Shown here: one piece after another, positions 2,038-60,591 of the stretch | How positions within the stretch are numbered: position 1 is the first letter of the stretch | How the letters are laid out: every line of letters starts with the position of its first letter | DNA from: Siphonodentalium dalli | Lineage: Eukaryota > Mollusca > Scaphopoda > Gadilida > Siphonodentaliidae | Length of the DNA stretch: 64,000 nt | NCBI GenBank assembly: GCA_032622095.1 | Contig: CP136065.1 | Span: 53,067,949-53,131,948 of the forward strand | Direction of reading: 5' to 3' | The notes under the pieces: model-generated | Databases searched by the model: none | What the model was told of the DNA's origin: nothing | Seen by the model: the letters and a program-made list of their open reading frames with translations, nothing else | Program-made: the position numbers and the translations under genes

Positions 2038-2438
2038 TTAACCCTTTACCCAACAGAACGGCCCTGTGCCAATGCGTTCTCTTATATATGCGAGTCGACC
2101 ATAGGTCGCCTCGCATATATAAGAGAATGCATTGGCTTAACACATTAAAAATTATAAAATTGTTAAAGAATGTAAGAAAAAATGGTAAAAAGTGTTTAAA
2201 AAAGATCTTTTTTAGGCCAATGCATTCTCTTATATATGCGAGGCGACCTATGGTCGACTCGCATATATAAGAGAATGCATTGGCACAGGGCATAACTGTA
2301 ACTATCACAATGTGGTCAAGGAGCCGGTTCCAATGATATCCATATTTGTATGGTTTTATTGAGACAGACCCAAGATATTTTAGGCTGTTGAAGCTTTATA
2401 TTGGGCGTTTTTGGCCGGTTTGTTGGGTAAAGGGTTAA
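2038..2438. mobile_element. piggyBac-like MITE with palindromic cassette, copy 1
   Basis: Bounded by TTAA at 2038-2041 and 2435-2438 with terminal inverted repeats CCCTTTACCCAACA / TGTTGGGTAAAGGG. A TTAA target and termini starting CCC are hallmarks of piggyBac-type elements; no transposase is encoded, so it is non-autonomous. Inside are two hairpins (2064-2136 and 2213-2290). The second is the reverse complement of the first, separated by an AT-rich spacer. A right-hand segment (AACTATCACAATGTGGTCAA...) is unique to this type. Full-length relatives are at 36931-37319, 57722-58112 and 60028-60591. Confidence 0.8.
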
Positions 2439-2554
2439 CCAAGTACATATTCTGTAGAATATACCCTTAGTACAAGTACAAGCTGTTATATTCTGAAGAA
2501 TATACCCTTACGGCGATTATGAGGGTAAAACATTTTGCGTCATCTTAACCTTAC

Positions 2555-3221
2555 CTATAACGATCACATTTTGTGATGCCTCCTGTGACTCGGCTAACTG
2601 TCGTTCCAGCCAGTTCAATTGATCGTCGCTCACAGAACCATTCCAGGCGACAAACCTCCTGTCTTTTCCATGCATACCACTGCAGTCGTTATCATCTTTA
2701 TTTGGATTGTGCGATTCGAGAATTTTCCGACCTTGCTTGTATTCTTCATCGGATTCATCATACCCATGCACAGAAATTTCCATACAATCCAAAACAACAA
2801 CCTTCAGCTTTGGAATGGGCGTGTGTGAGAAGTAAAGTTTTCCCGCAACAGTGGAACATGAGGTCATATGACATGGGCTGTACAAGTCTGATCTAATGAT
2901 TTTCTTTCGTTTGAAGTTATATAACTCATGATTTCCTATGGCGTGCAAAGAACGCTTCCGGAATGTGTCGAAACAGTTCATAACTGTTTCCAAACCTTTG
3001 GATGACCCGCCATGTTGCTTACATTTGAGATCGATGATATCGCCAAGCTGCAATACCAAATCAACATCGTCTTGTTTCCATGACGACACGGCGCGTTTTA
3101 CTAAGTTTAGAGCGTTTCGGTAGTAGCGTAGTTTACCTCCATGGTTCCTTGGGGCGTCGTCTACGTCGGCGTATTGGATATCCGCGATGATCCCGAGCTT
3201 CAAATGTGGCTTCATAGATGC
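2555..3221 (-). CDS. ADPRM: ADPRM, exon with start codon and N-terminal metallophosphoesterase motifs
   Basis: Encodes residues 1-220 and the first base of codon 221 of the manganese-dependent ADP-ribose/CDP-alcohol diphosphatase. The start is ATG at 3215-3213, six bases after a plausible acceptor (pyrimidine-rich TCTTTCCCTTAC then AAAACAG, AG at 3223-3222), so a 5' untranslated exon probably lies further right. Metal-binding motifs appear in order: IADIQYAD near residue 10 (this family has Q where most relatives have H), LQLGDIID near 56-62, GNHE at 94-97. The donor G|GTAAGG at 2555/2554 leaves phase 1, which matches the acceptor exon at 155. Reading on past the donor gives only 11 further codons before a stop, typical of intron read-through. 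No stops or frameshifts were seen, so the gene appears intact. Confidence 0.88.
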
Positions 3222-3387
3222 CTGTTTTGTAAGGGAAAGAGGGAAACAGTATTGAATCTTGAAAAAAGTAACTTGAAGAACTGGTCGATATCAAATCAAA
3301 CTAAAAATGTTATTCGGCACAACATACCCATGGCATGCCTCCGTCAACCTGCTGCTATGTCGTGTTACCCATCGTATAGCTTCAACA

Positions 3388-3450
3388 AATTCACGCACAC
3401 TATCTGCATATAAGGACATCACATTACTTAAATGTGACATTGCTTAAATG
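3388..3450. repeat. 63-bp segment shared with 5936-5998
   Basis: AATTCACGCACACTA...GCTTAAATGT is repeated at 5936-5998 with about one difference. The second copy lies inside a LINE 3'-end fragment, so this is probably a small piece of the same element. The sequence after it (CGCAAATACGCACATA..GACCTA) resembles 13240-13265. Confidence 0.55.
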
Positions 3451-3583
3451 TCAACATGTCATCGCGCAAATACGCACATACTCGACCTATACTGTGAAAT
3501 ATGTGCATTATTTGATTTTGAAACAAGAGCACGCCGTCGGGGCGTGGCATAATACGCCCGTTTCTGGAGTAGAGTGGGGCAAG

Positions 3584-4087
3584 GTTTAAAGGTACGGTTG
3601 GCCTTGGCGGTGGGTATCCTGTAAAAATATTTCCACCCGTCAAAAACCGCCACAAACAGAAAGAACATCAAAATGTAGACATACTTTGTCCGTATACAAA
3701 TAAGAAATATCGCATAAACAGTATGTTATTGTCATTTGTTTGATCATTGTTATGTAAACAAAAGCATAAAAAGTTACTTTTCTGGTGTTTGTTTATATTA
3801 TGATGGTAAACATAAAGAGCGTTCTTTGTTGGTGAATTCATGATATGGAACAAATAAAGAGCGTTTATGCCATTTTTGTGTGATTGGCCAGTAGCATTGT
3901 GCTGTCTTCTGTAACACAATCAGGCTCTTGCTTAGGCAAAATATAGTAGGTCTTTATGATAACATGCTGTTTACGCGATAGTCATGGTATATATGAACGA
4001 ACCTGTATGCATTTTAATGTTTTTCTGTTTACGGTGATTGGAACAAATATGAATATTTTCGACAACTAAGGCCTCACGTGCCTTTAA
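3584..4087 (+). mobile_element. AAAGG-family MITE, subtype 2, copy 1
   Basis: Begins TTTAAAGGTACGGTTGGCC and ends GGCCTCACGTGCCTTTAA, so the ends are imperfect inverted repeats flanked by TTAA. About 500 bp with no coding capacity. Near-identical copies are at 44642-45143 (opposite orientation) and 54362-54862. The middle holds the module AATAAAGAGCG...GATATGG...AATAAAGAGCG, shared with other MITE families here. Confidence 0.75.
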
Positions 4088-4149
4088 TTAATTTGTTTGA
4101 AACCTTTGACTTAAGAAGAAATAATAACAAAAATAAAACACAATAACTT

Positions 4150-4840
4150 GGAAACCGCATATCAGTTAAAATCTAAGTCGAAAAAGGGGCATAACTCAGT
4201 CAAAATCATGCGGACGAAACCAATATTCGAACTTGATCTGTATTTTGGTGTGGTAAACCAATATACCAAATTTAGTTCAGTTCACTTGATTCAATCTAAA
4301 GTTATCATCCGTAAACCGCAAATCAGGTAAAATCTAAGTCGAAAAAGGAACATAACTCAGTCAAAAGCATGCGGACGAAACCCATATTCGAACTTGATCT
4401 GTATTTTGGTGTGGTAAACTAATATACCAAATGTGGTTCAGTTCACTTGATTCAATCTAAAGTTATCATCCGGAAACTGCAAATCAGGTAAAATCTAAGT
4501 CGAAAAAGGGACATAACTCAGTCAAAAGCATGCGGACGAAACCCATATTCGAACTTGATCTGTATTTTGGGGTGGTACACTAATATACCAAATTTCGTTC
4601 AGTTCACTTGATTCAATCTAAAGTTATCATCCGTAAACCGCAAATCAGGTAAAATCTAAGTCGAAAAAGGGCATAACTCAGTCTAAATCATGCGGACGAA
4701 ACCCATATTCGAACTTGATCTGTATTTTGCTGTGGTAAACTAACATATTAAATTTGGTTCAGTTCACTCCATTCAATCTAAAGTTATCATCCGGAAACCA
4801 AAAGCGGATTGACGACGGACGGACGGGCAACCCATTACAC
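4150..4840. repeat. 161-bp tandem repeat, four units, with GACGGACGG tail
   Basis: The landmark AAATCTAAGTCG recurs at about 4168, 4329, 4490 and 4651, giving an exact spacing of 161 bp. Units are about 95% alike by eye. The last unit runs into GACGACGGACGGACGGGC. Diverged relatives lie in the opposite orientation at 35020-35860 and 38980-40130. A short ORF over the first unit is a by-product. Confidence 0.85.
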
Positions 4841-4894
4841 AATACGACCGGTTTTTGAAATAGGCGTATAAGCAGATAATGGACTCACTCATAC

Positions 4895-5080
4895 CCGTTA
4901 TTTCATTTTATGGCACGGGCCACAGTGGAAACACATGTTAAAGAGCGTACAAAAGACGTCAGTTGGCTCACTTGTGTCATTGTCCACGTATAATCTGCTT
5001 AGAATCGGCTCATTATGAGTCGATAATGTGACTAAACCGCTTTCATTTTCAGCACATTATCGACTCAAAATGAGGCCAGT
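4895..5080. repeat. Repeat fragment with a 14-bp stem-loop
   Basis: GAGTCGATAATGTG at 5017-5030 and its exact complement at 5053-5066 enclose a 22-base loop. The preceding TTATTTCATTTTATGGCACGGGCC (split here only as a landmark) resembles segments at 17460-17490 and 23970-24000, so this is a third fragment of that family. Confidence 0.45.
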
Positions 5081-5652
5081 ATGTAAATGGGAAACTATTT
5101 TTGAGGCATTTGTTGTGTAGGGAATTACGTCTATCCAGTGTTGTGTAGGGTATTACGTCTATCCATTGAAATCCATTGTGATATTGGCGAAATCAAGACA
5201 TTATGATCACTAGCTCATTGGACGAAAGAAAGTACATTATTGTAAACAAAGTTATATAATAACCGTGTCCATTATTATTAATAACAAGTATATAGACTAA
5301 TTTTGATCCGTTCATTGCCAAACTGTAGGCATAATACATAATGTGCCTGTACATGAATAGACCGTTGGTAGTCGCAAATAAATATGACCTGAAGTCTTAT
5401 AGTGAACGGACACACGACCGGTCAAGTTTGGCATTTACTTGACGTATACTCAAGAGTTTATAACTAACGTTCATCACTTTTGTTTGAGTATTGATACATG
5501 ACCGTCGACATAACCGTTTGCCATGTGTCAGAGTAGATCGTACATTTACACGTGGTCGGACCACTGGAATATAGCGAAAACTAACAGAGAACATAATACC
5601 ACATACATGTATCTACCATATATCTGAGACGGTACATGTAGTGAGTGATATA
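5081..5652. repeat. Direct duplication, copy 1
   Basis: From GTAAATGGGAAACTATTTTTG to GAGACGGTACATG, matched in the same order and orientation by 6019-6555, with substitutions and small indels (roughly 10% by eye). Copy 1 has a short internal doubling (TGTGTAGGGAATTACGTCTATCC). No protein was recognised; ORFs on the minus strand of both copies are short and differ by frameshifts. Confidence 0.7.
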
Positions 5653-6000
5653 GCTTCATTTAATTCAATTCAATTCAATTTTATTTAGTAATACATAACA
5701 AACATGATAACGTATAATGCACAACTCAAACAAAATATAGTATATATATTACTGGAAGATGGCATGACCCATTTGTCGTCTTCCTGCACACTCCCAAACT
5801 TATAGATAATAATAATCCGACTCTGAGACGTGTGACAGCGTACGTTTTGTAATAGTGTAGACAACGATACTTTTGTGGTTTAATTTTTTCCATAGCCTAG
5901 GTGGCGACAAAGTAAAGACTCGTTCAGCTCCAATTAATTCACGCACACTACCTGCATATAAGGACATCACATTACTTAAATGTGACATTGCTTAAATGTG
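5653..6000 (-). pseudogene. LINE 3'-end fragment with (GAATT)n tail
   Basis: On the minus strand a short frame (5988-5800) reads RVFTLSPPRLWKKLN..., resembling the 'RLWN.LP..I...FK..LK' end of CR1-like LINE polyproteins. It is followed, still on the minus strand, by a stop, an AT-rich 3' UTR, AAATAAAATTG and a (GAATT)n tail ending near 5660. The fragment separates the two direct-duplication copies. The resemblance to LINE C-termini is weak but the polyadenylation-type tail is clear. Confidence 0.4.
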
Positions 6001-6018
6001 GTTGATGCAAAGTTAGTT

Positions 6019-6555
6019 TGTAAATGGGAGACTATTTTGAGGCATTTATTGTCTAGGGAATTGCGTCTAATTTCAATGAATGAAAAGAAATCCATTGTGA
6101 TATTGGCGAAATCGAGACATTATGATCACTAGCTCATTGGTCGAAAGCAAAGTACAGTAAGTTGTAAACAAAGTTATATAATATTATTAATAACAAGTAT
6201 ATAGCTAATTTTGATCCGTTCATTGCCAAACTGTAGGCACAATTGTGTCTGTATCTGTACATGAATACCGTTGGTAATCTCAAATAATTATAACCCGAAG
6301 TCTTATAGTGAACAGACACACGACCGATCAAGTTTGACATGTACCTGACGTATACCCAAGAGTTTATAACTAACGTTTATCACTTCTGTTTGAAATACAT
6401 TGATTGTCGGCATGACCGTTAGCCATGTCATCGTAGATCGTACATGTACACGTGGTCGGACCACTGTGATAGAGCTAAAACCAACAAAGAACAACATAAT
6501 GAAAACACCAATGTATCCCACATCTATCTGAGACGGTACAGGTAGCGAATGAGAT
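6019..6555. repeat. Direct duplication, copy 2
   Basis: Second copy of 5081-5652, about 940 bp to the right and in the same orientation. It lacks the internal doubling of copy 1. Shared landmarks are GATATTGGCGAAATC, GATCCGTTCATTGCC, GACACACGACCG and ACACGTGGTCGGACCAC. Confidence 0.7.
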
Positions 6556-7353
6556 GCAAGCACAATGATAGCCAAATTGTCAAATAATTCCTAACTTTCA
6601 GTTAAAACCTTTTTCTTGAGTCAAAAGCTAACTTCCTAATACCTGTTCAACAAAGAATATATGTGCCACAGAATGACTTCCTCGTGTCATAACATATAAA
6701 TGTATCAATAACGCAATTGTTTTTTTACACTACTAAGAAATAACTAAGAACAAACGCTGAATATCTGTTTCTCTCTTGACGCGATGATTCTCACGAATCT
6801 AAATGGCTTAAATTGTCATATTTATCCAGTGTAGACATTTATGACACAATTCTTACATGCTTAAAATTGTACTGTACACTAAATCCAGTCATTTGTGGGA
6901 CCATCTCCTTTTATATTCAACAGAATATCTGCAACAAATGAATAAACGTGAGGCATGGATTAGTGCAAAATACATTCACGTGCTCTATGAACGATACAAA
7001 CGACATGGTCATTATAATGAAAATGAATTTATGACTCAAGCCATTTATTCATTTTCCTTATAATTGTCATGTTGAAGGCAATGCGTAGTTTGATATATTT
7101 TGTACACAGTTATGTTTTTTTCACATTTCTGACATTCAGGTCCGGTTTTGGTATATCAAATTAAGCCGACAAAGACGTAATATACTTTATCTTCGGAATG
7201 AAACAATAAAGAGTGTTACTGGTGAGTATATTCCTGATATGGTTTGAATAAAGAGCGATTGTCTCGCTTTTTTTAAAATTAGAAACGGCTTGACAAATTA
7301 TCTTTTTCTTCTGTGAGTTTTGTCAGGTTACTAACTTTGTATATAATATCTAT
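6556..7353. other. No gene seen; MITE-module fragment at about 7190-7275
   Basis: AT-rich. Around 7195-7260 the order AATAAAGAGTG - CCTGATATGG - AATAAAGAGCG reproduces the core module of the AAAGG-family MITEs without their ends. Nothing else was recognised. Confidence 0.4.
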
Positions 7354-7946: not shown

Positions 7947-8399
7947 GGTTACAATACACCAAATGATTTACATATAGGCCTCAGTGTTAACAAATCCCGC
8001 TGGCCTGTATTCGCAGGAAAGCTTTGACCCTGCACGAGTATTTGAAATTAAAGAACGTCCCTTTAGCCACACAGAAATTTGCCCAAAAGTACGTGTGAAC
8101 GTGGTAAATCACACTGCAGCTTGACAAACGTCACACTACTCGTAAAATTGAGAAAAAAAATGACATCGAAGAAACACAAACACCTCCCATTAATTATTCG
8201 CCATTTGCACAGCCATAACCCTTTACCATGTGGTTATATTTGATGTTTCTCGACGGGAAACACATTTGTGCATTTTTTTCGTGCACTTTTCATCCATGTA
8301 TCATTGACCATTCAGCTGCCAGAATGTTTTTATGCTGATCCTAGCTTGGTAGTGCCAGGGGAAATCACTCTACTAATTTGTATTTGGTGTATTGTAACC
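7947..8399. mobile_element. 453-bp element with perfect 18-bp inverted ends inserted at the end of gag
   Basis: GGTTACAATACACCAAAT at 7947-7964 is the exact reverse complement of 8382-8399. The gag frame reads into the right-hand end and stops within a few codons, just where a nucleocapsid region would be expected. This suggests a MITE insertion that truncated gag. Target duplication is uncertain: GTA precedes the left end and AGTA follows the right end. Confidence 0.55.
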
Positions 8400-9341
8400 A
8401 GTACTTTGAGGTTCCCAGTTGGAATTTCTGTATACGTATGTGGTCTCGAACGTGGTACAAAGGTTTGGCTTGTGTGAGAGGATTGTGGATGTGCATGCTG
8501 TTTCGTAATTTCGTGGTGCGTGTGATTGAATTGCATTTACACTTGCATTGACACTGTCCATGGACTGCTTTATAGCCTTAATTTCCGCTGTTAGTGCAGC
8601 GAAGGCTGATGAAACGTGATCGATTTTAGATGTGCTAGCGTTTAAATCGGCAGTCGCGATTTCAGTTCTAATAGCACCCTGAGATAACTCCGGAAGAGTA
8701 GTGGGGTTTTGTTGAATTACACCACTTCTAATCGCGGGGCGAAGTCCCTTCATTACGGCACTGAACACCTGCTCGTCGGAGAGATTTAAAGATATCGCCT
8801 TCGAGCGCATGTTCGTGATATAAGCTTGGACAGATTGTCCAGGGAGCTGACTCTCATTGAACAGGTCAGCCATACGTGACCATTCTAGATGTTTTGACAA
8901 ACAGAAATGTTCTTCAAATGCTTTAAATAAATGCATTAAACGAGATGTTACATCACTATCTGCACATTCCCACGAATCCTGGGCTCCCGATGTCAGTAGT
9001 AATGGAAACATTAAGAGCTGCTGCTCCTCAGTTAATCCTTTAAAGGATGCATAGTTTTGAAAAGTTTTCAGCCAACGGGTTGCATCCCCAAGACGGCTAA
9101 ATTTCCCAACTATGTGGATGTCCCCTAGAGACATACCTTTATTCAAAGTTGATGACGATGAAGATGTGGATGTAATTAACTCTACATGTGTGGTGATTGT
9201 CGAGGTGACTGTTGTACTGGAAGTTGTTGTGGTTGTTGCTGTTGTTTGCGCTGTTGCGTTGGTAATGTCCGTGTTCACAGCGGGAGGTCGGATGGTAATT
9301 CTTGCCTGGGCCCCTCGTGTTTTTATCTTGTCATGGGACAT
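8373..9341 (-). CDS. Retrotransposon gag (capsid region), C-terminally truncated
   Basis: A single open frame of 322 codons from ATG at 9341-9339. The frame is also open for 18 codons further into the leader and LTR, but MSHDK is the first methionine after the LTR. After a basic start (KIKTRGAQAR) and a Thr/Ser-rich linker comes a Ty3-type capsid domain: FSRLGDATRWLKTFQNYA, QLLMFPLLLTSGAQDSWE, and a helix with YITNMRSKAISLNLSDEQV then GLRPAIRSGVI. A predicted coiled segment (AEIKAIKQSMDSVNASV) follows. Capsid proteins of this type package element RNA. There is no CCHC zinc knuckle: the frame ends inside the inverted-end insertion at 7947-8399. The intact frame suggests recent activity, or supply of gag in trans. 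Confidence 0.82.
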   Translation of the reverse strand: MSHDKIKTRGAQARITIRPPAVNTDITNATAQTTATTTTTSSTTVTSTITTHVELITSTSSSSSTLNKGMSLGDIHIVGKFSRLGDATRWLKTFQNYASFKGLTEEQQLLMFPLLLTSGAQDSWECADSDVTSRLMHLFKAFEEHFCLSKHLEWSRMADLFNESQLPGQSVQAYITNMRSKAISLNLSDEQVFSAVMKGLRPAIRSGVIQQNPTTLPELSQGAIRTEIATADLNASTSKIDHVSSAFAALTAEIKAIKQSMDSVNASVNAIQSHAPRNYETACTSTILSHKPNLCTTFETTYVYRNSNWEPQSTGYNTPNTN

Positions 9342-9360
9342 TGGATTCTCCACCAATTGT

Positions 9361-9825
9361 GAGAGCGGACTTGATATGTCAGGGAATAACGTCACGCTCC
9401 ACGTGGGTCCAGGGCTGTTAAAAAGAATAAGACTTGTTGTAAGGAAATCGAGTATAGTATTGTGTTGTCTAATAACATTAATAACAAATACAGTAAATAC
9501 AATAAAGACACATAGAATTAGTGTTAGATATAAATTAGATTGTGCTTTATGTTTGACTTGATTTAGTTGAAATGAAACGTATTTAATAATAATTATGAGA
9601 CTGCAAATGAGTTGAATGTAGATAAGAATTTAAGATAAGTTAAGTATATTTTAGTGATAATAATAATTAATAAATATAAAGTATAGAGTAGAATAATATA
9701 GTAAAATTGTACATACCTGTTAAAAAGAATGAGACATGTTGTAAGGAAATCGAGTATAGTATTGTGAACTCGATTACCCTACATCATATCTTTTTATACG
9801 GGTAGCGATGACCCAATGAACTTCT
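9361..9825 (-). repeat. 5' long terminal repeat of gag-only LTR element
   Basis: About 465 bp matching 7354-7853, just upstream of gag on the minus strand. It lacks the ATTGTAATAGAC expansion of the other LTR. Its coding-strand start contains TATAAAAAG (in ..CCCGTATAAAAAGAT..), a plausible TATA element driving the gag transcript. Confidence 0.75.
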
Positions 9826-32785: not shown

Positions 32786-34004
32786 TTAAATTAGTATATG
32801 CTACGTGCCACCCAGACTCATTAGACATTATTAAAACATGTTTATCGCACATATAGCAATACACTAGAGCACACAGGAGCACCAATGGGAAATCAAAAAA
32901 AGTTAATGTTACGATTGATTCAAATTGATTCAGATTGGTCAAGATTGGTTAGGAATTTTATGACGTTCACAGTTTATCTTGGATGAATTCAGGAATCTTG
33001 TATGAGTTCAGAAAAGGCATTATTTCTATTGGACTGCTCAAGTGTAGCATGTGAGAGTAAAGCATATAATAAAAAACAAACCTACACTTTTAGTAGAAAC
33101 CTGTATTAACTCATTCATGACTACATGAGATTGTAATTATTACCATTTTCTATCTCTTTTGTCACATATGAGATAATTGTGTTATCCACTCACAAGTCTA
33201 GGTATGTTACATGTTTTTTCTTTATACATCAGTGTATAAATCAGTGTTTAATGTCCATGTTTGACAAGATTTGGCATTAAATTTATTTCTTTAAAGTTAT
33301 CCTTATTTCATGTTAATTACATAGAATACTGCATGGGCGATTCAGCTGCATTAAGAATACTTTCCCTTGTCCTAAAGAGGCACAAACCAACATCCAATGG
33401 CCCTAGCGTGTTTAGTGTTGCTGCAGTTCCTTATTAATGATTTCTTAGTGTTAAAAACCAGTACAAACTAGTACAAATCCAATAAAAGGTGTGAAGGAAA
33501 ACAAATAATTTTGTCACGGAAAAAATAGCTTTGGGTTTATTCTGACACCCACCACCCCAGCATCGTGTCGGAAATCCCCCCCCCCCCCCCCCCCCGGGAC
33601 CCGCGGTGAAAAATTATCCGGTTTGAACTTGTTTGGTGTTTCAACGTCCCATATCGACTCATTCTCAGACATCTCAATTGAGGACCTCTGGGTTCGTGCA
33701 GTGTGTTTGTGCACCAATAATTGTAAACCTTACAACATTTTACGATGTTACCGAAATGTACCGCCTCTAGATACGGACGAAGCAGCGTAAGCAGTGACAT
33801 GGTAATCATAAAGAGAGCTTAAAAACGCAATGGTTTTAAATGCGACAGGCGGGTTGAGGCCTCAAATTGTACTTAATAATGTTCGTCTTTGTTACATCCC
33901 GACCCTTAATCAAATAGGTCGCTAAATTCGTGAAATACTTGTGTATACTGGTTCGTGCATGTGTGTGTGATGGAATAACAAGGTTGTTCAGGTCATGGTA
34001 TCTT
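32786..34004. other. No gene; poly-C at about 33579-33595
   Basis: AT-rich. A C-run of about 17 followed by GGGACCCGCGG lies at 33579-33601; the Gly-rich ORFs on the minus strand come from it. Confidence 0.3.
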
Positions 34005-34262
34005 AATCCTTTCGTGACGTGAACTGCGCTGCTGCAGCATTAAAGATCATATTCCAGTGCATTATGTTATACATGCCAGTCTCCCATGGGGAGCCTCGCA
34101 CACATATAAGAGAATGTACCGGTCAATGTAAATATTGTTAGACCAATGCATTCTCTTATAATAATACGAGAGTCTCCCTGTGTGAGACTAGCATATATAA
34201 GAGAATACACTGACACAGGGTTTTCGCAAAATTTCAGGAAGCTCCAGTCACGGAAGGGTTAA
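34005..34262. mobile_element. Palindrome-cassette MITE, CCGTGACTGGAG-ended type
   Basis: Left end TTAATCCTTTCGTGACGTGAAC, right end GCTCCAGTCACGGAAGGGTTAA, imperfect inverted repeats with TTAA outside. Two hairpins on the CATTCTCTTAT..GAG motif (about 34054-34120 and 34144-34217), the second followed by ACACAGGG. More diverged than the CCCTTTACCCAACA type. Confidence 0.6.
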
Positions 34263-36930: not shown

Positions 36931-37319
36931 TTAACCCTTTACCCAACAGAACGGCCCTGTGCCAATGCATTCTCTTATATATGCGAGTCGACCATAGGTC
37001 GCCTCGCATATATAAGAGAATGCATTGGCTTAACACATTAAAAATTATAAAATTGTTAAAGAATGTAAGAAAAAATGGTAAAAAGTGTTAAAAAAAGTTT
37101 TTTTTAGGCCAATGCATTCTCTTATATATGCGAGGTCGACTCGCATATATAAGAGAATGCATTGGCACAGGGCATAACTGTAACTATCACAATGTGGTCA
37201 AGGAGCCAGTTCCAATGATATCCATATTTGTATGGTTCTATTGAGACAGACCGAAGATATTTTAGGCTGTTGAAGCTTTATTTGGCCGGTTTTGGCCGTT
37301 TTGTTGGGTAAAGGGTTAA
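36931..37319. mobile_element. piggyBac-like MITE with palindromic cassette, copy 2
   Basis: TTAA at 36931-36934 and 37316-37319 with CCCTTTACCCAACA / TGTTGGGTAAAGGG ends. The first hairpin is intact; the second (37110-37168) has a shortened loop (GCGAGGTCGACTCGC), a ~10-bp deletion at its centre. Otherwise nearly identical to 2038-2438. Confidence 0.8.
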
Positions 37320-40130: not shown

Positions 40131-40223
40131 CCCAGCGATGCTCTTGTTTTTCTTAGCATAGACGGAGTGTCATTCAAAACACGTACTACGTGTACACGTG
40201 GAGCCCGGGCATTCACGTATATG

Positions 40224-40650
40224 TGACCCGCCATATCAAATCTAGTCGTAAGTCGGGATTTTTTTACCCTGTGCCAATGCATTCTCTTATATATGCGAGT
40301 CGACCATTGGCCTAACAATTTTTTATCATTTTTTTTAAATAAATGTTTCTTACAATTTTTAGGAAATAAAATAAAAACATCCATTACCCTGCAGGGAGCC
40401 CCACAAATATATAGGAGCATATAGAAGAGTGTCGTCTGCTCATGTTTGTCTGGGGCTCTGTATGGGTGAAATTATAAAATTGTTAAAGAATACAAGAAAA
40501 AATTATTAAAATTGTAAAACATTGTTAGGCCAATGCATTTTCTTATATATGCGAGGCGACCTATGGTCGACTCGCGTATATAAGAGAATGCATTGGCACA
40601 GGGTAAAAAAATCCCGACTTACGACTGGATTTGATATGGCGGGTCACATA
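40224..40650. mobile_element. Palindrome-cassette element with TATGTGACCCGCC termini
   Basis: Left arm TATGTGACCCGCCATATC...TCGTAAGTCGGGATTTTTTTACCC and its complement at about 40600-40650 form ~50-bp outer inverted repeats, which continue into the CAATGCATTCTCTTATATATGCGAG hairpin arms. The left hairpin is incomplete (cut at GACCATTGGCC, about 40310). TA on both outer sides is consistent with a TA target. These outer ends differ completely from those of the TTAA-bounded copies. Confidence 0.7.
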
Positions 40651-41504: not shown

Positions 41505-41860
41505 CTTTAACTCTTTCAGTGCCAGGGGCCGATCTCATCGGTCCCAATTTACTGTCTGTAGAGTGTCTTTTTTAAAGATTTTTTTTTGGGGTTGAATTTG
41601 GGCATGTTATAACTCAAAACTATCACCAAGTATTCATAGTAATAATTTTGATGCCCATGAAAAACGTAAGATTCCCTAGCACTAAACCTACAAAATAAGT
41701 CTGGCACTGAAAAAACAATTATTGAAATTGTAAAAAATTGTAAAAAAATAATAACAAATGATGAAAAATTGTTAGGCCAATGCATTCTCTTATATATGCG
41801 AGGCGACCTATGGTCGACTCGCATATATAAGAGAATGCATTGGCACAGGATATATGGGTT
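41505..41860. mobile_element. Palindrome-cassette hairpin in a fourth context
   Basis: A single hairpin at 41774-41849 (GGCCAATGCATTCTC ... GAGAATGCATTGGC, then ACAGGA). To its left, AT-rich spacer text as in other copies, then TTTAACTCTTTCAGTGCCAGG (41508) and TCTGGCACTGAAAAAAC (41700), which are inverted relative to each other. The outer context is therefore unlike the other three types. Confidence 0.55.
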
Positions 41861-43149
41861 GTGGACCGAGAATACTTGGTCTATCATACACCTGATCGAT
41901 TCGTTGGCAATAAGGGATGTTCTGCAATAATAGCACTGTCTGCACATGCACTTTTATATTTCCAAGTGAATTATGTAATTGTACAAAAAATCGAATCTTG
42001 CTGGGATGTAGCAGGAAATAGGTTCCCAATGAAACTTCGGTAAACATTTAGAGAACACCAATATTACAAACATGATAGAATGCTTCACGTTTCTAGATGA
42101 CGGACGAGCTTAATAATGCTCTCCAGTCATTTTTATTAGAGTTGGGTTTCAGTTATGCGGATCTGCAATATTTAAAATACTGCCAATTTATAACTTGAGA
42201 TATTGCCTGTGGAATCTTGGAATGATATTTTGAATGATTGTGGAGACTGGGAGGCGCATACACCAACACATATAGTGTAGTAACACAGCCGTACGAGCGT
42301 CCGAATTTTTAGGCGCGGGGCTGAGACTTTTTGTCTGAAATTTTTACATGATATATTCATGGTTGTAACATTTATTTTGTAAAATATACCTTGTAAGTAC
42401 ACAGAAATATAACAAAATATCTTCAAATTAACTTTAAATATGTATAATTCGGGCAGAAATGTGAAACAAACTGTAATATTCCACAATTTCCCCCTGAAAT
42501 ACCATTCAATTTGCCCGAAAATTGTCAGAATATATCTCCAATTGGCCGAAAATTGTCGTATTTTGAGCGTTCGAAACGTTTGGGGGGGGCTGCAGACCTC
42601 CAAACACCCTGACCCATACGGTTATTTGTACGAATTTTCTCTTGAAGAGTATAGTTGGATCAAATACTTTTTTGTGTGTGCATGGCAATAGAAAATCACA
42701 AGAACGACGGGAGGACATGGAATTGCATGATGTTTTTGGCATGGCGTATTTAGTTGGGTATTTAGTTGGGTGTATATCAGTCGTCGTGTGGATCGAGATG
42801 TTCAATATTCCTCTAAATTTCGACCTAAATATTAATAAAAGTTCAGCCTACCACGCCCACAACAACGTGGCAATTCGATGCCGCTTTGTTAAAGAAATTT
42901 AAAAAAATGTTGCACATCTTCAATATATGTGCAACAATATTCTGAAGTTTCAACTCACTGGGATGAAATCTGTAGGAGGAGATGATTACACCATGAAGGT
43001 ACTCAAAAGTGTGACGGACGGACGGAGCCCGTTTTTATAGTCCTCCTTTTCTTTCAGACAGTCGGGGGGCAATAATTTTGGGCATGTACACACGACTACA
43101 CGTATTATATTACATGTTCGCTATTTGTGACATTTCTTCCATCCCAACT
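41861..43149. other. No gene recognised
   Basis: A 143-codon minus-strand frame (42603-42172) is rich in Tyr, Phe and Ile and has no features I recognise; AT-richness may explain it. GTGTGACGGACGGACGG at about 43012 is a tail of the kind that ends the ~160-bp arrays. Confidence 0.3.
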
Positions 43150-43390: not shown

Positions 43391-44641
43391 AGCCTTGGTT
43401 GCTGAGAATTTGTGGTGCATGCAGGGGTGGGTGGGTGGTCAAAGCCACCAACAAGCAATTTTTTTCGCAACTAAAAAAAAAAAATTCTGCTTGTTTTTTA
43501 GTGTTTTGGCAATGAGTTGGGCTTCAAAACCACTTTGAATGAGAGAAATAATGTAATTCTAACTGTAAATTGACTGCAGGCAGTTATCGTGTTGTATTTT
43601 GTTGCAAATTTTGAAATCCAAGATGGCCGCTGGCAGCCATGTTTTTTTGGCCGAGTGACCTCAAAATGACTCATTCCTATTTACATGTCCATGTTAACAT
43701 CCATGATAAATAATATGCACAGAAATTCATATACAGCTGTTTACAGTGAATTTCCCCCCCCGAAAATCTCTGTTTTAGTGTTAAAGGGGGGGGGGTGGGT
43801 GTAAAAAAATGGTCGGAAAAAACTGCCGAAAACGGAAAAAAATTTGGCGGTGGGGGTGGGTGGGTACAAAAAATGATCGTAAGGGAAAAAATGCCATACG
43901 TGCCTGAAATTTTTTCCGACCCCCCCCCCCCCCCCCACCTGGTGCATGGACGATTGTGATTCTACACAGCTAATGATAGGATCAAACTCAACCTTTTAAG
44001 AGTAGAATTCCTACAGTGTCGTTGTTTCAGTGTATCAGGTTACATCTACTTTTGCCACGTTCTACATAAACCGGTGATGCATTAGTATGTGTACCAGCAG
44101 ATGGCAATATATTAACCAGGTTCAATCACTCGCACATGTAACTTGTTACGTGTTTTGCCATGCGAACTGAAGTCACCTGGCTCATGTGGTCATTACGTCT
44201 ATACGTACCCGCTTAAATCATTTAGACATGATTGTGTCCAACTTATAGCCAACGAAACCTGTAATAAAAAGGAATAATTCAATCATCTGATAACCGAATG
44301 GACCATTAACGCTTTGCAGGCGGCGGGAGAATGGGATTTACCTGCGCTGTAAGATTTGATTTTGATTGAATCTAAATTATCGGTGGTCTCATTGTGGCAG
44401 CTTGTCATCACCACCCGACTAGTATTTGCACATTTCGCATGACGTTATCTAATATGAATCGTACGTGACACGTAGTGGAGCAACCACACATGATGTGCCT
44501 AAAATTTGCCCTTTTTGGCGACATAACGCTAAGAATAATTTATGTAACATCATGCACGGTTACAACGGATACGACATGCCAAAATTAACAAGACGTGTCG
44601 TGGATTGTAAAATATTGTGACTTCTTCATTTTTCGTTTTCA
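43391..44641. other. No gene; single '..GCCATG..' unit and poly-G/poly-C tracts
   Basis: TTGAAATCCAAGATGGCCGC...GGCAGCCATG at 43610-43650 is one unit of the ~160-bp family. A run of G at about 43787 and of C at 43920-43937 lie in a segment with inverted similarity at its ends (GGTCGGAAAAAA...TTTTTTCCGACC). Confidence 0.45.
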
Positions 44642-45143
44642 TTAAAGGCACGTGCGGCCTTAATTGTCGAACATATTCATATTTGTTCCAAACACCGTAA
44701 ACAAAAAAACATTAAAACGCATACAGTTCCGTTCATATATACCATGACCATCGCGTAAACAGCATGTTATCATAAAGGCCTACTATATTTCACCTAAGCA
44801 AGAGCCTGATTGTGTTACAGAAGACAGCACAATGCTACTGGCTAATCACACACAAATGTCATAAACGCTCTGTATTAGTTCCATATCAGGTATTCACCAA
44901 CAAAGAACGCTCTTTATGTTTACCATCATAATATAAACAAACACCAGAAAAGTAACTTTTTATGCTTTTGTTTGCATAACAATGGTCAAACAAATGACCA
45001 TAACATACTGTTTATGCGATATTTCTTATTTGTATACGGACAAAGTCTATCTACATTTTGATGTTCTTTCTGTTTGTGGCGGTTTTTGACGGGTGTAGAT
45101 ATTTTCACAGGATACCCACAGCCAAGGCCAACCGTGTCTTTAA
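44642..45143 (-). mobile_element. AAAGG-family MITE, subtype 2, copy 2
   Basis: TTAAAGGCACGTGCGGCC at the left and GGCCAACCGTGTCTTTAA at the right with TTAA at both boundaries. Internal text is the reverse complement of 3584-4087. Confidence 0.75.
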
Positions 45144-46985: not shown

Positions 46986-46989
46986 AACA

Positions 46990-48015
<1,026 letters not shown>

Positions 48016-54223: not shown

Positions 54224-54361
54224 TGCATACAAATTTATCGGAGAGAAACACTACATGGATTCCCATGCATTCGTCTATACGGAAAACACTTTAATTTAAT
54301 TGACCTTAAGTTGAATTATTACAAACATCATAACAAATCTGGTTGATAAAAATGTTTGGTC

Positions 54362-54862
54362 TTAAAGGTACGGTTGGCCTTGGTGGTGGGTATCCTGTGA
54401 AAATATTTCCACCCGTCAAAAACCGCCACAAACAGAAAGAACATCAAAATGTAGATAGACTTTGTCCGTATACAAATAAGAAATATCGCATAAACAGTAT
54501 GTTATTGTCATTTGTTTGACCATTGTTATGTAAACAAAGGCATAAACAGTTACTTTTCTGGTGTTTGTTTATATTATGATGGTAAACATAAAGAGCGTTC
54601 TTTGTTGGTGAATTCCCGATATGGAACCAATAAAGAGCGTTTATGTCATTTTTGTGTGATTAGCCAGTAGCATTGTGCTGTCTTCAGTAACACAATCAGG
54701 ATCTTGCTTAGGTAAAATATAGTAGGTCTTTATGATAACATGCTGTTTACGCGTAGTCATGGTATATATGAACGAAACTGTATGCATTTTAATGTGTTTC
54801 TGTTTACGGTGATTGGAACAAATATGAATATTTTCGACAACTAAGGCCTCACGTGCCTTTAA
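54362..54862 (+). mobile_element. AAAGG-family MITE, subtype 2, copy 3
   Basis: TTAAAGGTACGGTTGGCC at the left and GGCCTCACGTGCCTTTAA at the right with TTAA at both boundaries. Very close to 3584-4087. Confidence 0.8.
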
Positions 54863-55215: not shown

Positions 55216-55395
55216 ACAATTCAAAACTATTCCGTCTGTAAGTATTTCATGTATATTTATATATCGACCAAGCTTGATACCGACGGACAGTGACACATTG
55301 AAAGGCGCTGTATAAATTTGATTTGAGGCTTGAAGATCATGACCAGGCTATCCTTAATAGTTTACTATATGTGCTGTGATATTGGCCTAATTTCT

Positions 55396-55640
55396 TAAAC
55401 GGACATGGCTCATTCGAACCTCCAATTTGTTTTCTACGTAATTTGGAGCGACGGATACGATAGGTCGATAAATAAACTATTGGTATATCGGCTTCATATG
55501 CTCTGAAAAACACTTGCCAAAGTCACAGCCATTTTTCAGCCGTTTTCAACTTTTTGCAAGAAGTCATAAACGCTCTTTATTGTTACCATATCAGGAATAG
55601 ACTACCACGGAACGCTCTTTTCTGTTCCATGTCGTGCAAA
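55396..55640 (+). repeat. AACGGACATGG-type repeat, copy 3
   Basis: Includes AAACGGACATGGCTCATTCG, TCTACGTAATTTGGAGCG, CATAAACGCTCTTTATTG, CCATATCAGGAATAGAC and GGAACGCTCTTTTCTGTTCC. Continues to about 55850 with text shared with 13540-13720. Confidence 0.6.
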
Positions 55641-56029
55641 TGTCTGTTTTATGTTTGGGACCCAAACACCGTATTCACAGTTGTATTTTTCATTACTTCA
55701 ATGCGTCTTTTTTGGATTACATAATGCTCGTAGAAAGGTAGTTCGGGTATTTATCGACCTATTTCGATACTCAGAAAAATTCAAAAGCGAATAGTATTAT
55801 GTGTATTTTGAAGCGCAAACCGCCATGTGGCTTTAAGATGCCCGAAATTACCCTTCAAGTATCTGGTAAGAATAATTCTTGTTACACCTCGTGTCATTTT
55901 ATTGCTCTAATACATGTATTCGATCAAAATATCGAACAAACATTCCAAAATTAATCATTCCAAAATGTGCAATAGTTAGACATTTTTGAATAAATTCATG
56001 AAAATTTGCCAGGCAATATTGCCAGTTAT

Positions 56030-56185
56030 ATGACCCTTAACCATGGCTATCGACATATTTAAATGTTGGTGTGCAATTTCATAGCGCAATGCTGTCGTTG
56101 CAGACCGCCTTGAACAGGGTCGGTCAATAAATGACCAATGCCACTGAGTAAATTGATACGACTAGTTAATGGCAGCATTGTTTGT
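56030..56185. repeat. Direct repeat, copy 2
   Basis: Second copy of 55063-55215. The pair flanks about 815 bp that includes an AACGGACATGG-type repeat, so a duplication or a pair of long terminal repeats is possible; no LTR features were found. Confidence 0.6.
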
Positions 56186-56631
56186 GGCCCATCACTTAAG
56201 TCCTCTCCACCATTTAGGAGAGTCTTCAACGGGCTGTCGTTTCGCATCTATATCGCACTTTATTGCGCAAACCTTTTAGGGGGCGCGCACTTATTTTCTC
56301 GTTCGTTTTCGTTGGCATGATGCTGTATCATCGGTCTCAAGACTCTGCGAACAAGAGGTGGAGACAGCTATAGACCGATTTCCAGACTCGAGAAGTCAAT
56401 CTCCCACGCAACAATATGTGATCAATGTCGGTAGCGGAGAAACTGAATGAATCACTTAAGATTGTCTCGAGCGCGAGATTGTAGTTGTGGTGGTGCTCAT
56501 TGCGCACTGAAAATCCTCGGTTCTTTAGGGTACGTTCATACACTAGCAAGTTTGCACGATATGACTTATATGCATTTCGTCGTATAAAACGACATGATGC
56601 CATAGTATGAACGGAAACATATTTAATAAAT
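56186..56631. other. No gene recognised
   Basis: A 117-codon minus frame (56690-56337) extends into the hairpin and has no recognised features. Confidence 0.25.
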
Positions 56632-56762
56632 AGAGCATGGCTTGGAGTGAAATACGCCGATATAGTGCATAGTGAGGTTGTGTAGTTCACGACGCGAAGC
56701 GGAGTGAACTACACAATCGCACTATGCACTATATCGGCGTATTTCACGACAAGTCATGCTCT
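56632..56762. repeat. Long covarying hairpin, copy 2
   Basis: TAGAGCATGGCTTGG...AAGTCATGCTCTA. Arms of about 58 bp (GAAATACGCCGATATAGTGC...GTAGTTCAC) with the loop GACGCGAAGCGGA. Bulges AGG/TCG and GG/GA sit where those of copy 1 sit. Followed by ATTATTATATTGTATCGAAC as in copy 1. Confidence 0.8.
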
Positions 56763-57721
56763 AATTATTATATTGTATCGAACAAATGCAGAAATTTTCA
56801 ACTTTTACTAAGTTCAGACAATTGATGTTCGCCTTACTGAAGCTTTAATTTGGATCAGCGGCGAAATAACAAGTAGTTTCAGAACAAAGTTTGATGTAGT
56901 GTTCGTTACTATTTTTAGTAGTCAAAACTACATATGCATAGTGCACGATGGGAGAGACTTGAAGGCGTAGTATACAACTACGACTAATAGAGTCGAGTAG
57001 CCAACCAATCGGAAAGCTTGATTTCAATAACAAAGTCACGTGAGATACAATATATATATATAATGCATATGTACCATCTCCGTAATTTCACCTGTAGCTA
57101 TACTACCGGAATTTATCTGTAAATAACATGCAATTATCTCGCAAGAATCAATCATACATGTATTTAAATGCAAATGCCAGTAGCACCGTTACATGTGGAA
57201 CTACAGACATTTTACTTCTGATGTCGTTCGCTTTGGCAAAGATGCATGTTATATGTATGTTTCCGCTCATATTCTGGCACCATGTGGTTTTCTATGACTA
57301 AATGCCTATAAAACATGCAAACTTGCCAGTGTATGAAATTAAATATACTAGTGTATGAACGCACTAGTGATTCTAAATATGTCTTCTGGAAGGAAGCGCC
57401 TGGATAAGTTCATAACTAAGTTGGACATTTCAGAGAGAAGAAGTAGGTTGAATGTTTTCTGACAGGTGGATATATTCCAACCAGTATTTATTGTCAAATG
57501 TGTTCTTTTTAGACCACAAAGTAAAATATTTCTAATATTCTATCAATTAATTACGAACCTCTGGAAGCTTTCAACGGTAGGTTGGGTCCTATGTTAGAAA
57601 TTCCAAACAGTTGGAAAGTTTGGGGACAGCTGGAAGTGTTGAAACATTCATATTCGTTCATGGAACTGATAATAATATCCTATGGTAACTACTCGCCAAT
57701 GCGTATTTTGTATGTTACATG
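56763..57721. other. No gene; probable body of the hairpin element
   Basis: CAACCAATC...GTCACGTGAGATACAATATATA at about 57000-57060 has a counterpart after hairpin copy 3 (about 61605-61660), suggesting the hairpin is one end of an element of several hundred bases. Nothing coding. Confidence 0.35.
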
Positions 57722-58112
57722 TTAACCCTTTACCCAACAGAACGGCCCTGTGCCAATGCATTCTCTTATATATGCGAGTCGACCATAGGTCGCCTCGCAT
57801 ATATAAGAGAATGCATTGGCTTAACACATTAAAAATTATAAAATTGTTAAAGAATGTAAGAAAAAATGGTAAAAAGTGTTAAAAAAAGATTTTTTTTTAG
57901 GCCAATGCATTCTCTTATATATGCGAGTCGACCTATGGTCGACTCGCATATATAAGAGAATGCATTGGCACAGGCCATAACTTTAACTATCACAATGTGG
58001 TCAAGGAGCCGGTTCCAATGATATCCATATTTGTATGGTTCTATTGAGACAGACCGAAGATATTTTAGGCTGTTGAAGCTTTATTTGGCCGGTTTGTTGG
58101 GTAAAGGGTTAA
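57722..58112. mobile_element. piggyBac-like MITE with palindromic cassette, copy 3
   Basis: TTAA at 57722-57725 and 58109-58112, CCCTTTACCCAACA / TGTTGGGTAAAGGG ends. Its second hairpin has a fully palindromic centre (GCGAGTCGACC..GGTCGACTCGC). Confidence 0.8.
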
Positions 58113-58186
58113 ATACATGGTTGAATCTATTTGACACCATATTGTTTAATTTTGCCCTAGCATTATCTTTTGTCTATGTTTTTGTT

Positions 58187-58205
58187 TTGTTGGGTAAAGG
58201 GTTAA
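58187..58205. mobile_element. Orphan right end of a piggyBac-like MITE
   Basis: TGTTGGGTAAAGGGTTAA stands alone about 75 bp beyond copy 3, with no left end of its own. Confidence 0.6.
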
Positions 58206-59147
58206 TATTGTCTCGAGCACGAATATGCAGATGGGGTGGTGCTCATTAATTGTGCCTGGCACTTGGCCAGTTGGGTTTTAGGTGGTAATTGTCTGGTCTC
58301 ACATAGACCTTCTGCAGGGAAAAGGCATGTAAGTTTACGAGGAGAGTCGTAAAGATGATCCACCATTTTAGACATCTACCACTTACAGGGCGAAGAAAAT
58401 TTGCAAATCGATTGCCATAAACATCAGTCGTAACGCACAGATATCTCGGAAAATCCACTGAGACATCTATCCTGATGAAGAATATGATCGGAATACAAAA
58501 AAATATATATTTAAGGAACGGTTTCGTTTTTAAAATTCGCTGCTTTTATTGTCAAAGAAATATTAAACATTCAATATCATAAGTGGTTTCATTCATGTTC
58601 AGGCGTTGTGCCTACGTATATTAATTAATTTTATATGGGGATTTCATATATTTCCAGACCACGATAAAAAAAAAACCGCTTTCTCATATTTGCATGAAGA
58701 CCGGGTTGCAAAACAAATGACGTTCGGACGGAAATGTTTCGCGAAAATGTACATGCATATCTGATGATACCTTCATCTAAATACACAATTTGGAGTTTGA
58801 ACCATTGACTTCTTGTAATTTATGGCCCTATTTTGTCCGTTTTAATCAAGCAGTTAGATGTGTTTTTATTTAAATTTTGATATAAAATTAGAGACATCCA
58901 AAACCTATGCCTCGAATCAGATAAACTATATATATGTGACTGTCATTAAATCGGGCGCGATCTGACTGAACACACCATGCGAAAACTCTTCAATTAATTA
59001 TTATTCAGAACACAATCGAATGTCTCAGACGAGGTGTCTGGATTACACGAGTTTGGTAGTACGCACTATTCAAATAATATGCCATAGATATTTATTTGAA
59101 TTTGAAACACGGGTCTCGTGCGTGATAGCCAATCAGGAGCTAAGGAA
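58206..59147. other. No gene recognised
   Basis: AT-rich; short ORFs only. Confidence 0.25.
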
Positions 59148-59335
59148 ATGTCTACCGGCATACCGATAGAACAAACGCTTCGTTCCATCAATCCAGGAAC
59201 ATATTTCAATTACCAACCGGAAGTAGCAATGTTACGCCGTGCCATAGCCAGTAATTATGGGGAGGTAGATCGATTCGGACTCTTCAATGAGTTGATTGAA
59301 ATGTTGGGTTGCAGAATTGGTCTTATCGTTGACTT
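59148..59335 (+). CDS. Short exon-like ORF of unknown product
   Basis: ATG at 59148 opens a frame of 63 codons ending in TAA. A donor match ACTT|GTAAAG sits at 59335/59336, so it may be a first coding exon rather than a complete protein. The sequence (PEVAMLRRAIASNYGEVD..., FNELIEMLGC) has balanced composition and helix-like patterning unlike the repeat ORFs here. GCCAATCAG lies just upstream. I recognise no family. Confidence 0.25.
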
Positions 59336-60027
59336 GTAAAGTTTGATGGAAATCAAAGAGCAAACAGCTTCTTTAGTATGCGTGTGTGCATGTACTCAAA
59401 ACACATAATTCAATGTCCAATACTGGTATGTCTGCAAACACAGCTCATTATCCAATGGCATACTAGTTTCAAGTCGAATTTGAATTGTTGAGTTTTTTCG
59501 CAAATAACTGACACAATTGTGCATTGTGTTCTGCAATATTGAGAAGATCCCATTACTGTTATTCAGTGAACATTTGCAGTCAATTCCTGCCCAGCAAATG
59601 ATCTCTAGGTCGGGTAGTTTAGCAATATATATTCCGGGTATGGTAACACATGGCTATCACATATGCAAATTATCCCTAATTGTGGTCAGACTACCAGAAA
59701 TTGGAATATTTAGCTTATTTTTGTGATTGTAAGCACTGGAATTGTTAAATAGCATTGTTGTGCGGCATACGGGGGAGCCCCCCCCCCCCCCGTTCACCCA
59801 TGTAATAGTTTATCCGTTCGACTTGGCCCTTTATCTCGTTATTTGCGGGTATAAATAATATCAAGTTGTTAAGTATGATATCAAATCGAATGGGGCATCT
59901 TTTAAATGAACCCATGTAAAATAGAAACAAATCTATATAAACAAAATCACAAGGAGGAACAGAAAAAAAACAAAGGTTAACCCTCCCCCTCCCGCCGCAG
60001 TATCCACAACGTAATAATTGTTCTACA
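59336..60027. other. No gene; poly-C at about 59779-59790
   Basis: A C-run of about 12 after GGGGGAG lies at 59779-59790. Nothing else was recognised. Confidence 0.3.
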
Positions 60028-60591
60028 TTAACCCTTTACCCAACATAAGGGCCCTGTGCCAATGCATTCTCGTATATATGCGAGTCGACCATAGGTCGCC
60101 TCGCATATATAAGAGAATACATTGGCTTAACACATTAAAAATTATAAAATTGTTAAAGAATGTAAGAAAAAATGGTAAAAAGTGTTAAAAAAAGATTTTT
60201 TTTTTAGGCCAATGCATTCTCTTATATATGCGAGGCGACCTATGGTCGACTCGCATATATAAGAGAATGCATTGGCACAGGGCATAACTGTAACCATCAC
60301 AATGTGGTCAATGAGCCGGTTCCAATGATATCCATATTTGTATGGTTTTATTGAGACAGACCCAAGATTTTTGTTTAGGCCAATGCATTCTCTTATATAT
60401 GCGAGGCGACCTATGGTCGACTCGCATATATAAGAGAATGCATTGGCACAGGGCATAACTGTAACCATCACAATGAGCCGGTTCCAATGATATCCATATT
60501 TGTATGGTTTTATTGAGACAGACCCAAGATAATTTAGGCTGTTGCAGCTTTATTTGGCCGGTTTTGGCCGGTTTGTTGGGTAAAGGGTTAA
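60028..60591. mobile_element. piggyBac-like MITE, copy 4, with an extra internal hairpin unit
   Basis: TTAA at 60028-60031 and 60588-60591. Three hairpins instead of two (about 60052-60124, 60208-60280, 60378-60450). The segment from the second hairpin through GACAGACCCAAGA is tandemly duplicated (about 170 bp), with one copy lacking TGTGGTCA. This shows in-place expansion of the cassette. Confidence 0.8.

Follow-up and report, generated by a model that had tools for sequence, protein, structure and literature searches.

A MITE family usually takes its name from its termini and is assigned to a single transposase. Those of the piggyBac type, which reportedly include mPok1 and mPok2 of Pokey, have TTAA as their target. 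Pack-TIR elements (PMC8277862) are TIR transposons that acquire a foreign interior by template switching, for which gap-filling and FoSTeST models are given, and multicopy Pack-TIR elements are attributed there to later transposition. A study on Galileo in Drosophila mojavensis (PMC3573991) describes copies that swap TIRs and central regions and have repeats within the TIRs, and proposes such exchange as the source of new subfamilies. In MER6 with the V highly conserved domain of SINEs (PMC6887750), a module of one element type has crossed into the ends of another and rides its amplification.

In the 2.23-Gb genome of Siphonodentalium dalli we found a palindromic cassette, here called K, which differs from each of these systems. 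Pack-TIR captures are non-TE and mostly single-copy, whereas K is one palindromic non-coding module with four end families and more than 160,000 ends. Exchange in Galileo occurs among subfamilies of one element, while K is found across end types that differ in target preference. MER6 combines a conserved SINE domain with one MITE family; K is a hairpin module with four end types. A literature search, which covered few subscription journals, gave no report among the matches listed of one internal cassette across MITE families with different termini.

The window analysed is a stretch of 64,000 nt of contig CP136065.1. A sequence-only reading had placed the same hairpin module at eight positions of the window, and K is indeed present at all eight. 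The module had been described as arms, often in two copies, followed by ACAGGG. The hairpins were recovered, but the true unit is CCCTGTG, a hairpin, an AT-rich spacer, the inverted copy of this hairpin and CACAGGG, and its outer boundary CCCTGTG is constant to about 1 base across all four end families. The arm CCAATGCATTCTCTTATATATGCGAG has 25 matches in the window at up to 3 mismatches, with a mean of 0.00 in 100 shuffles. When folded, two window hairpins give almost perfectly paired stems, 32-33 pairs long and closed by a 3-base loop (z -15.6 and -17.4), and one old B hairpin folds more poorly (z -7.3). The 26-base arm had 0 exact matches in viral_contigs and genome_contigs, and scans of the window with Rfam (gathering thresholds) and for tRNAs gave no match.

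The outer ends around K form four discrete sets, A, B, C and E, in line with the earlier proposal of at least three, probably four, different termini. The ends are TTAA/CCCTTTACCCAACA in A, TTAA/CCCTTYCATGACTGGAGC in B, GTGACCCGCC flanked by TA or AT in C, and TTAA/CCCTTTSAGTGCCAGG in E, which is the type first listed as CTCTTTCAGTGCC. A-type elements lie on the forward strand at 2038..2438 (TTAA on both sides; hairpins 2062-2136 and 2216-2290), 36931..37319 (hairpins 36955-37029 and 37108-37172, the second with a central deletion), 57722..58112 (hairpins 57746-57820 and 57901-57974, the second perfectly palindromic) and 60028..60591, where a tandem duplication with a 171-base shift gives hairpins at 60052-60126, 60208-60282 and 60379-60453. 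A solitary A-type end without the cassette was found on the reverse strand at 58184..58205. The two B-type elements are old: 1571..1804 (no strand assigned) has degenerate ends TTAC/GTTA, hairpins at 1604-1676 and about 1701-1763 and a short spacer, and 34003..34262 (forward strand) has TTAA on both sides and hairpins at 34054-34122 and 34143-34220.

The C-type element at 40220..40650 (no strand assigned) has lost most of its left hairpin (40267-40310) and retains the right one at 40529-40603. Its 47-base outer inverted repeats run into K as TTTTTTTA/CCCTGTG..CACAGGG/TAAAAAAA, and a second palindromic module, Q, occupies the middle of the K spacer at 40387..40468 (no strand assigned; bounds approximate, by eye). 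The TA target duplication proposed for one of the outer sets, which would be expected of a Tc1/mariner-type element, fits two C copies, those of the window and L039, whereas AT fits the copy in L047 better. The L047 element sits within a further palindrome (19/20 bases). The E-type composite at 41507..41861 (forward strand) consists of a left part, the TTAA-type element E', to near 41712, followed by a half-K. This type had been listed among the cassette carriers, which is correct for the copy at 41507, but that copy has a single hairpin (41776-41849) and its outer right terminus is lost past about 41861.

Among the copies read, 6/8 A, 4/6 B, 2/2 E and 2/2 K-less E elements are bordered by TTAA at either end and lie in flanks that are unrelated, and lengths are mostly about 230-570 bases, with L006 and L047 as exceptions. 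The A, B, C and E composites are thus MITEs: short, flanked by TTAA (A, B and E) and high in copy number. With a TTAA target duplication and a CCC start, A, B and E would class as piggyBac-type elements. They resemble piggyBac-type MITEs in these two features but differ from them in the internal hairpins that A, B and E have in common; their autonomous counterpart is only putative.

Genome-wide counts are pattern matches over all 2.23 Gb, and tandem arrays push up some of them. The K end CCCTGTGCCAATGCATT occurs 163,536 times. An intact TTAACCCTTT lies 10-40 bases from 57,831 K ends; together with 17,600 C joins and 39,386 A-right joins this makes 114,817, or 70% of K ends, while about 30% fit no exact join pattern. 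Exact E joins number 12,598, and K-less E ends 9,034; the pattern control was 0 for each of these counts. For the 23-base C end there are 15,159 matches, which does not exceed the number of C joins and gives no sign of a large population of C elements that lack K. Of the first 100 K ends listed, 92 could be placed in one of the four end families, 81 of them by an exact pattern, two were unplaced (L029 and L059) and six were unread. The 100 TTAACCCTTT-type joins listed comprise 53 A, 42 E, 5 B and 0 others, and the 53 A-left and 42 E joins each have a single form apart from point variants, with the rearranged L049 as the exception among E joins.

To judge the mobility of K we used 25 K blocks, eight from the window and 17 from stretches picked independently of K. 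All eight in the window lie inside A, B, C or E elements, as do 15 of the other 17 by pattern and 16 by eye, which gives 23/25 and 24/25 in total. An intact K outside these elements was seen in 0 of the 25 blocks. Since nearly all blocks sit within such elements, K does not appear to transpose by itself. The junctions listed are nearly base-identical within each family, which implies few transfers with amplification after each; K seems to have passed between end types on a small number of occasions and to have multiplied afterwards along with its new carrier. It had been suggested that either the cassette moves or the elements exchange termini. The block counts and the E composite fit the exchange of termini better, but not a continual exchange: the near-uniform A-left and E joins point to a handful of transfers.

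Judged by its sequence, the E composite shows a step of such an exchange, by TTAA insertion into the spacer of K. E' is bounded by TTAA and placed exactly at a TTAA of the AT-rich spacer (complete in L028), and the composite has the far end of E' as its left terminus. The left and right ends of E belong to two TTAA families that are alike only over the outermost 19 or so bases. K-less E ends exist on a different interior; E' by itself was not seen among the stretches read. K in E would also qualify as a Pack-TIR-like capture, with an interior of foreign origin between TIRs and related copies elsewhere, namely K in B and the K-less E ends. Candidate microhomology at the junctions is very short: a common CC at A-left, and A or TA preceding CCCTGTG at E and C. 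Intermediates of the A or C transfer, and K-less A or C elements preserved well enough to reveal the form that preceded capture, were not found among the copies read. The C end at L047:9966 was considered as a K-less C element and rejected, as it continues in L051 as a C end, Q and then a truncated end resembling that of C, which runs into K.

We consider it reasonably probable that K was an internal palindromic module of the old TTAA (piggyBac-type) MITE lineage B and was later captured by A, C and E. B would be the first owner, to judge by its age and hairpin type and not by a tree; the B copies read carry two hairpin cores, the older TCTCCCATAGGGAGC and the TCGACCATAGGTCGC of A, C and E (L006, L039). 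E' may originally have been an independent MITE that entered a TTAA in the spacer of K; one transposase reading both ends could then move the composite. The other junctions, where an outer end abuts CCCTGTG, may stem from template switching or from gap filling after a break, as for Pack-TIR elements, with K presumably a preferred filler owing to its abundance and its palindromic structure. The constancy of the CCCTGTG boundary, however, counts against random gap filling. After each rare capture the composite would be amplified like an ordinary MITE, without K ever transposing. The interior of these MITEs would then have a separate history that crosses end types with different target preference, and a classification by ends would not agree with one by interiors. 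As A, C and E each have over ten thousand joins in this genome, phylogeny and empty sites can be used directly to test how new MITE families originate. As a tentative extension, K could be a "parasite of parasites", a palindromic module that is itself immobile and survives by gaining new transposon ends again and again. TTAA and TA in its AT-rich spacer would serve as landing sites, its hairpins would invite template switching, and, if true, the K lineage outlives every end family on which it rides and every transposase that moves it.

Alternatively, K is or was a transposon of its own, with CCCTGTG..CACAGGG ends and a TA target, which entered several MITEs and, in the case of C, landed precisely in the middle of a palindrome. 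The boundary is sharp in all four families, the mirror arms TTTTTTTA and TAAAAAAA around K in C are as expected of insertion at a central TA, and nested palindromes are seen elsewhere (Q in K, the C element of L047). We nevertheless hold this to be unlikely, given that no intact K was seen outside the four element types in the 25 blocks, with two of the first 100 ends listed unplaced and six unread. Furthermore, A and B have no visible target duplication around K, E has no second K side, and the empty E sequence CCCATATTTC would not lead one to expect CCCATATA/CCC and a duplicated TA.

The conservation of arms and termini bears on a second alternative, in which the hairpin aids amplification, as a site for a transposase or host factor or as a structured RNA, and is kept by selection at a fixed distance from the end while termini drift or swap. 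From terminus to arm, most of the B ends read measure 49 or 51, most E ends 51-52 and 4/6 C ends 54, but A has 31 and 144-155. In the young family A (7 copies) hairpins differ at 7/897 positions (0.8%) and spacer plus subterminal parts at 36/1385 (2.6%; Fisher p 0.0014), a difference to which subfamily variants in the non-hairpin segments contribute and which is not significant when the hairpins are compared with the outer termini (6/343, p 0.21). In the old family B (7 copies) arms, spacer and ends are all 8-10% off consensus (arms 61/681, 9.0%; outer ends 53/595, 8.9%), and the CCCTGTG bases diverge most (18/87, 20.7%). The claim of a far greater identity in the arms than in the flanks therefore holds between families and partly within A, but fails within B. 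Strong constraint on the hairpins was not upheld by the figures for B, and selection for the hairpin is a quite improbable account.

Descent from a single ancestral MITE, with termini diverged by ordinary mutation and hairpins kept alike by gene conversion, would explain why A, B and E have TTAACCCTTT in common (A-E 10/10, 0/500 shuffles as good) and why B-left matches E at 16/19 bases (0/500) and B-right at 26/30 aligned, gapped bases (11/500). The sequence-only reading had itself named two outcomes that would speak against its proposal of a moving cassette or exchanged termini: arms no better conserved than termini, which is the case in family B, and outer types that grade into one another. 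The latter was not observed; the sets are discrete, with 0 intermediates among the 100 joins listed. In addition, C lacks clear kinship to the TTAA ends (25/500 shuffles do as well against the long A-right end, at least 101/500 against the others), A has little in common past its first 10 bases, and E ends occur on another, K-less interior, all of which makes a single ancestor very improbable. Plain nested insertions or an assembly artefact without module transfer, to which the raising of some counts by tandem arrays might lend support, are refuted as a general account by A, B and E copies bounded by TTAA at independent sites and by the same joins recurring in tens of thousands, and we regard them as scarcely credible.

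Candidate transposases are plentiful, with 128 PF13843 matches in the genome, many of them with open frames (116 of 649 candidates scored). In the partly read flanks of one piggyBac gene the A, B and E termini were absent, apart from a loose E-like match with 5 mismatches, and a short stretch, GGCAGGTCCGATT, resembles an E end by eye. A link between piggyBac genes and the A, B or E ends thus failed for the one copy tried.

Frequent collapse of the hairpin to its base was also considered and rejected. The exact, fully collapsed form occurs at 1 genomic place only, so frequent palindrome-driven breakage is unsupported. Separately, L044 holds a mutated collapsed hairpin.

The palindromic cassette K, which the sequence-only reading had placed at eight sites in the window, is present at all eight. 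K opens with CCCTGTG and closes with CACAGGG; between them an AT-rich spacer, whose length varies, separates a hairpin of about 70 bases from its inverted copy. Two young hairpins were folded and gave a near-perfect stem of 32-33 pairs with a 3-base loop. Allowing up to 3 mismatches, the window has 25 matches to the 26-base arm (mean of 100 shuffles: 0.00). In the S. dalli assembly (2.23 Gb, 9 contigs) the K end CCCTGTGCCAATGCATT occurs 163,536 times and the 33-base end-plus-arm 123,984 times, each with 0 in the control; the exact collapsed hairpin occurs once.

Four sets of outer ends surround K. The window contains four copies with the A end TTAACCCTTTACCCAACA, two with the B end TTAACCCTTYCATGACTGGAGC, one with the C end (TA)TGTGACCCGCCATATC and one with the E end TTAACTCTTTCAGTGCC, the last with a single hairpin only and its right terminus lost. 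By exact pattern, 57,831 K ends in the assembly are located 10-40 bases inside an intact TTAACCCTTT, 17,600 are inside the C end and 39,386 are in the A-right join, which combine to 114,817 K ends or 70% of the total. Among 100 listed TTAACCCTTT joins, 53 are A, 42 are E (10 of them within a single tandem array of about 11.2 kb), 5 are B and none is other. On contig 1, the first 100 K ends include tandem arrays and are not independent; exact patterns place 81 of these, two are B by reading (in the stretches L003 and L006, read like all L-numbered stretches outside the window), and five are partners of an assigned end at most about 400 bases away. Of a further five that were fetched, two proved to be B ends (TTAACCCTTCC) and two to be C ends carrying a mutation. 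In total 92 of the 100 were placed, two that were read stayed unassigned (L029, L059) and six were unread. The distance from terminus to arm is mostly 49 or 51 bases among the B termini read and mostly 51-52 in E; four of six C ends have 54, and A has 31 and 144-155. On contig 1 there are also an A-type tandem array (G000:C1:735751-779435, unit about 14.56 kb) and an E-type one (G000:C1:820017-920839, unit about 11.17 kb), each with one K element per unit.

K does not seem to be mobile by itself. Twenty 10-kb stretches at hand-picked positions on contigs 1-4, chosen without regard to K, contain 17 K blocks, of which 15 are assigned by pattern (A 4, B 7, C 2, E 2), the 16th (L045:8666) was judged by eye to have a decayed B end and the 17th is half a hairpin (L032). 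Together with the eight blocks of the window (A 4, B 2, C 1, E 1), which was chosen for this finding and is no random sample, A, B, C and E elements house 23 of 25 K blocks by pattern and 24 by eye. No intact K was found in plain DNA among these 25 blocks, very degenerate copies (e.g. L044, L040:2977) being below detection. TTAA on both sides with unrelated surrounding DNA was found in 6 of 8 A, 4 of 6 B and 2 of 2 E copies, which are therefore independent insertions. K remnants at L032:1509-1700 and L059 lie beside another palindromic repeat (CAGAATNAGGTCCCCAGAGGGTGAATT), a possible fifth context.

The clearest case of the proposed K transfer is E. Elements of this family without K exist (L046:2335-2468, L005:1972-2159; 9,034 exact ends in the assembly) and read ..GTATCAACCCATATTTC, where K-bearing E reads ..GTATCAACCCATATA directly followed by CCCTGTG (12,598 exact joins). 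On the other side of K lies E', a TTAA-bounded element (TTAACYCTTTCAGTGCCAGGGGCCGATCTCATCGGCCC..CTGGCACTGAAAGAGTTAA) with both ends intact in L028:1116-1396; no E' without K was found in the sequence read. E' occupies precisely the TTAA in the K spacer, which is still uninterrupted in C (TTGTTAAAGAATACAAG in C versus GAGTTAAAGAAGATAAG in L028). The E element thus owes its left end to E' and its right one to another family sharing the outermost bases.

For C, the 23-base end occurs 15,159 times in the assembly, which does not exceed the number of C joins and gives no sign of a large population of C without K. C elements show palindromes within palindromes: a second palindrome, Q, sits in the middle of the K spacer, and the C element in L047 itself lies at the centre of a further palindrome, whose flanks (L047:6543-6562 and 8772-8791) mirror each other at 19 of 20 bases. 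This element (L047:6563-8771) carries about 2 kb of cargo including CGG-rich inverted repeats, with fragments that by eye resemble a C2H2 zinc finger and a P-loop packaging-type ATPase.

Aligned B copies have an older hairpin core (about TCTCCCATAGGGAGC) and a 29-base spacer, and other B elements, in L006 and L039, share with A, C and E the newer core (TCGACCATAGGTCGC) together with AT-rich repeats. With both cores present in B, we read K as having probably arisen there and passed later to A, C and E. One locus (L008:1680-2400) has tandem B-type ends (unit about 33 bases) and a tandem hairpin (97-base unit).

The arms had also been said to be far better conserved than the flanks. Measured as deviation from the family consensus, this does not hold in the old B family (seven copies), where arms deviate at 61/681 (9.0%), outer ends at 53/595 (8.9%), the spacer at 17/197 (8.6%), loops at 24/183 (13.1%) and the CCCTGTG bases at 18/87 (20.7%). 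In seven of eight A copies, the single-hairpin one being omitted, the counts are 6/711 for arms, 1/186 for loops, 14/550 for the spacer, 22/835 for subterminal sequence and 6/343 for outer ends. Here the claim stands only in part, as the hairpin deviates less than spacer plus subterminal sequence (p 0.0014, a difference to which subfamily variants contribute) but not less than the outer ends (p 0.21). In C (six ends, three elements) arms deviate at 1/155 and outer sequence at 7/265 (p 0.27). In three E copies the counts are 2/148 for arms and 16/123 for the outer end, from which no reading is drawn because 12 of the 16 changes come from the truncated window copy. The near-identity of K across A, C and E mostly reflects youth.

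The best supported mechanism is rare capture of new ends, then amplification. E would have gained its new left end via TTAA insertion into the spacer of K, the joins at CCCTGTG may have been formed by template switching, and the composites would have been amplified after each rare capture. This model leaves unexplained why four families share one and the same base as the outer boundary of K. The main rival, that K once had its own insertion mechanism, would account for this identical boundary. The capture case resembles in part Pack-TIR gap filling and FoSTeST (PMC8277862), Galileo chimeras (PMC3573991) and MER6 with a SINE V domain (PMC6887750), but in the available parts of these papers no single module spans four end types. 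The portion of the open-licence literature covered, which is incomplete, gave no earlier report of such sharing of a K-like cassette.

PF13843 is matched at least 128 times in the assembly, and many of these matches have open frames. The flanks of one copy, as far as they were read, contain no A, B, C or E ends save a loose E-like match, and no transposase was linked to any outer end. Among the matches are many genes for piggyBac-type transposases whose open frames are long, several seemingly in near-identical copies with equal scores and frame lengths. Within the window, an open frame at 2517-3290 on the minus strand, near the A element at 2038-2438, contains a calcineurin-like phosphoesterase domain (Pfam: PF00149), and another at 8373-9629, also minus, has a weak gag-like match under the Pfam cut-off. 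A separate long-repeat family, 93-94% alike and in both orientations, is found at 3586-4091, 44638-45143 and 54338-54753.
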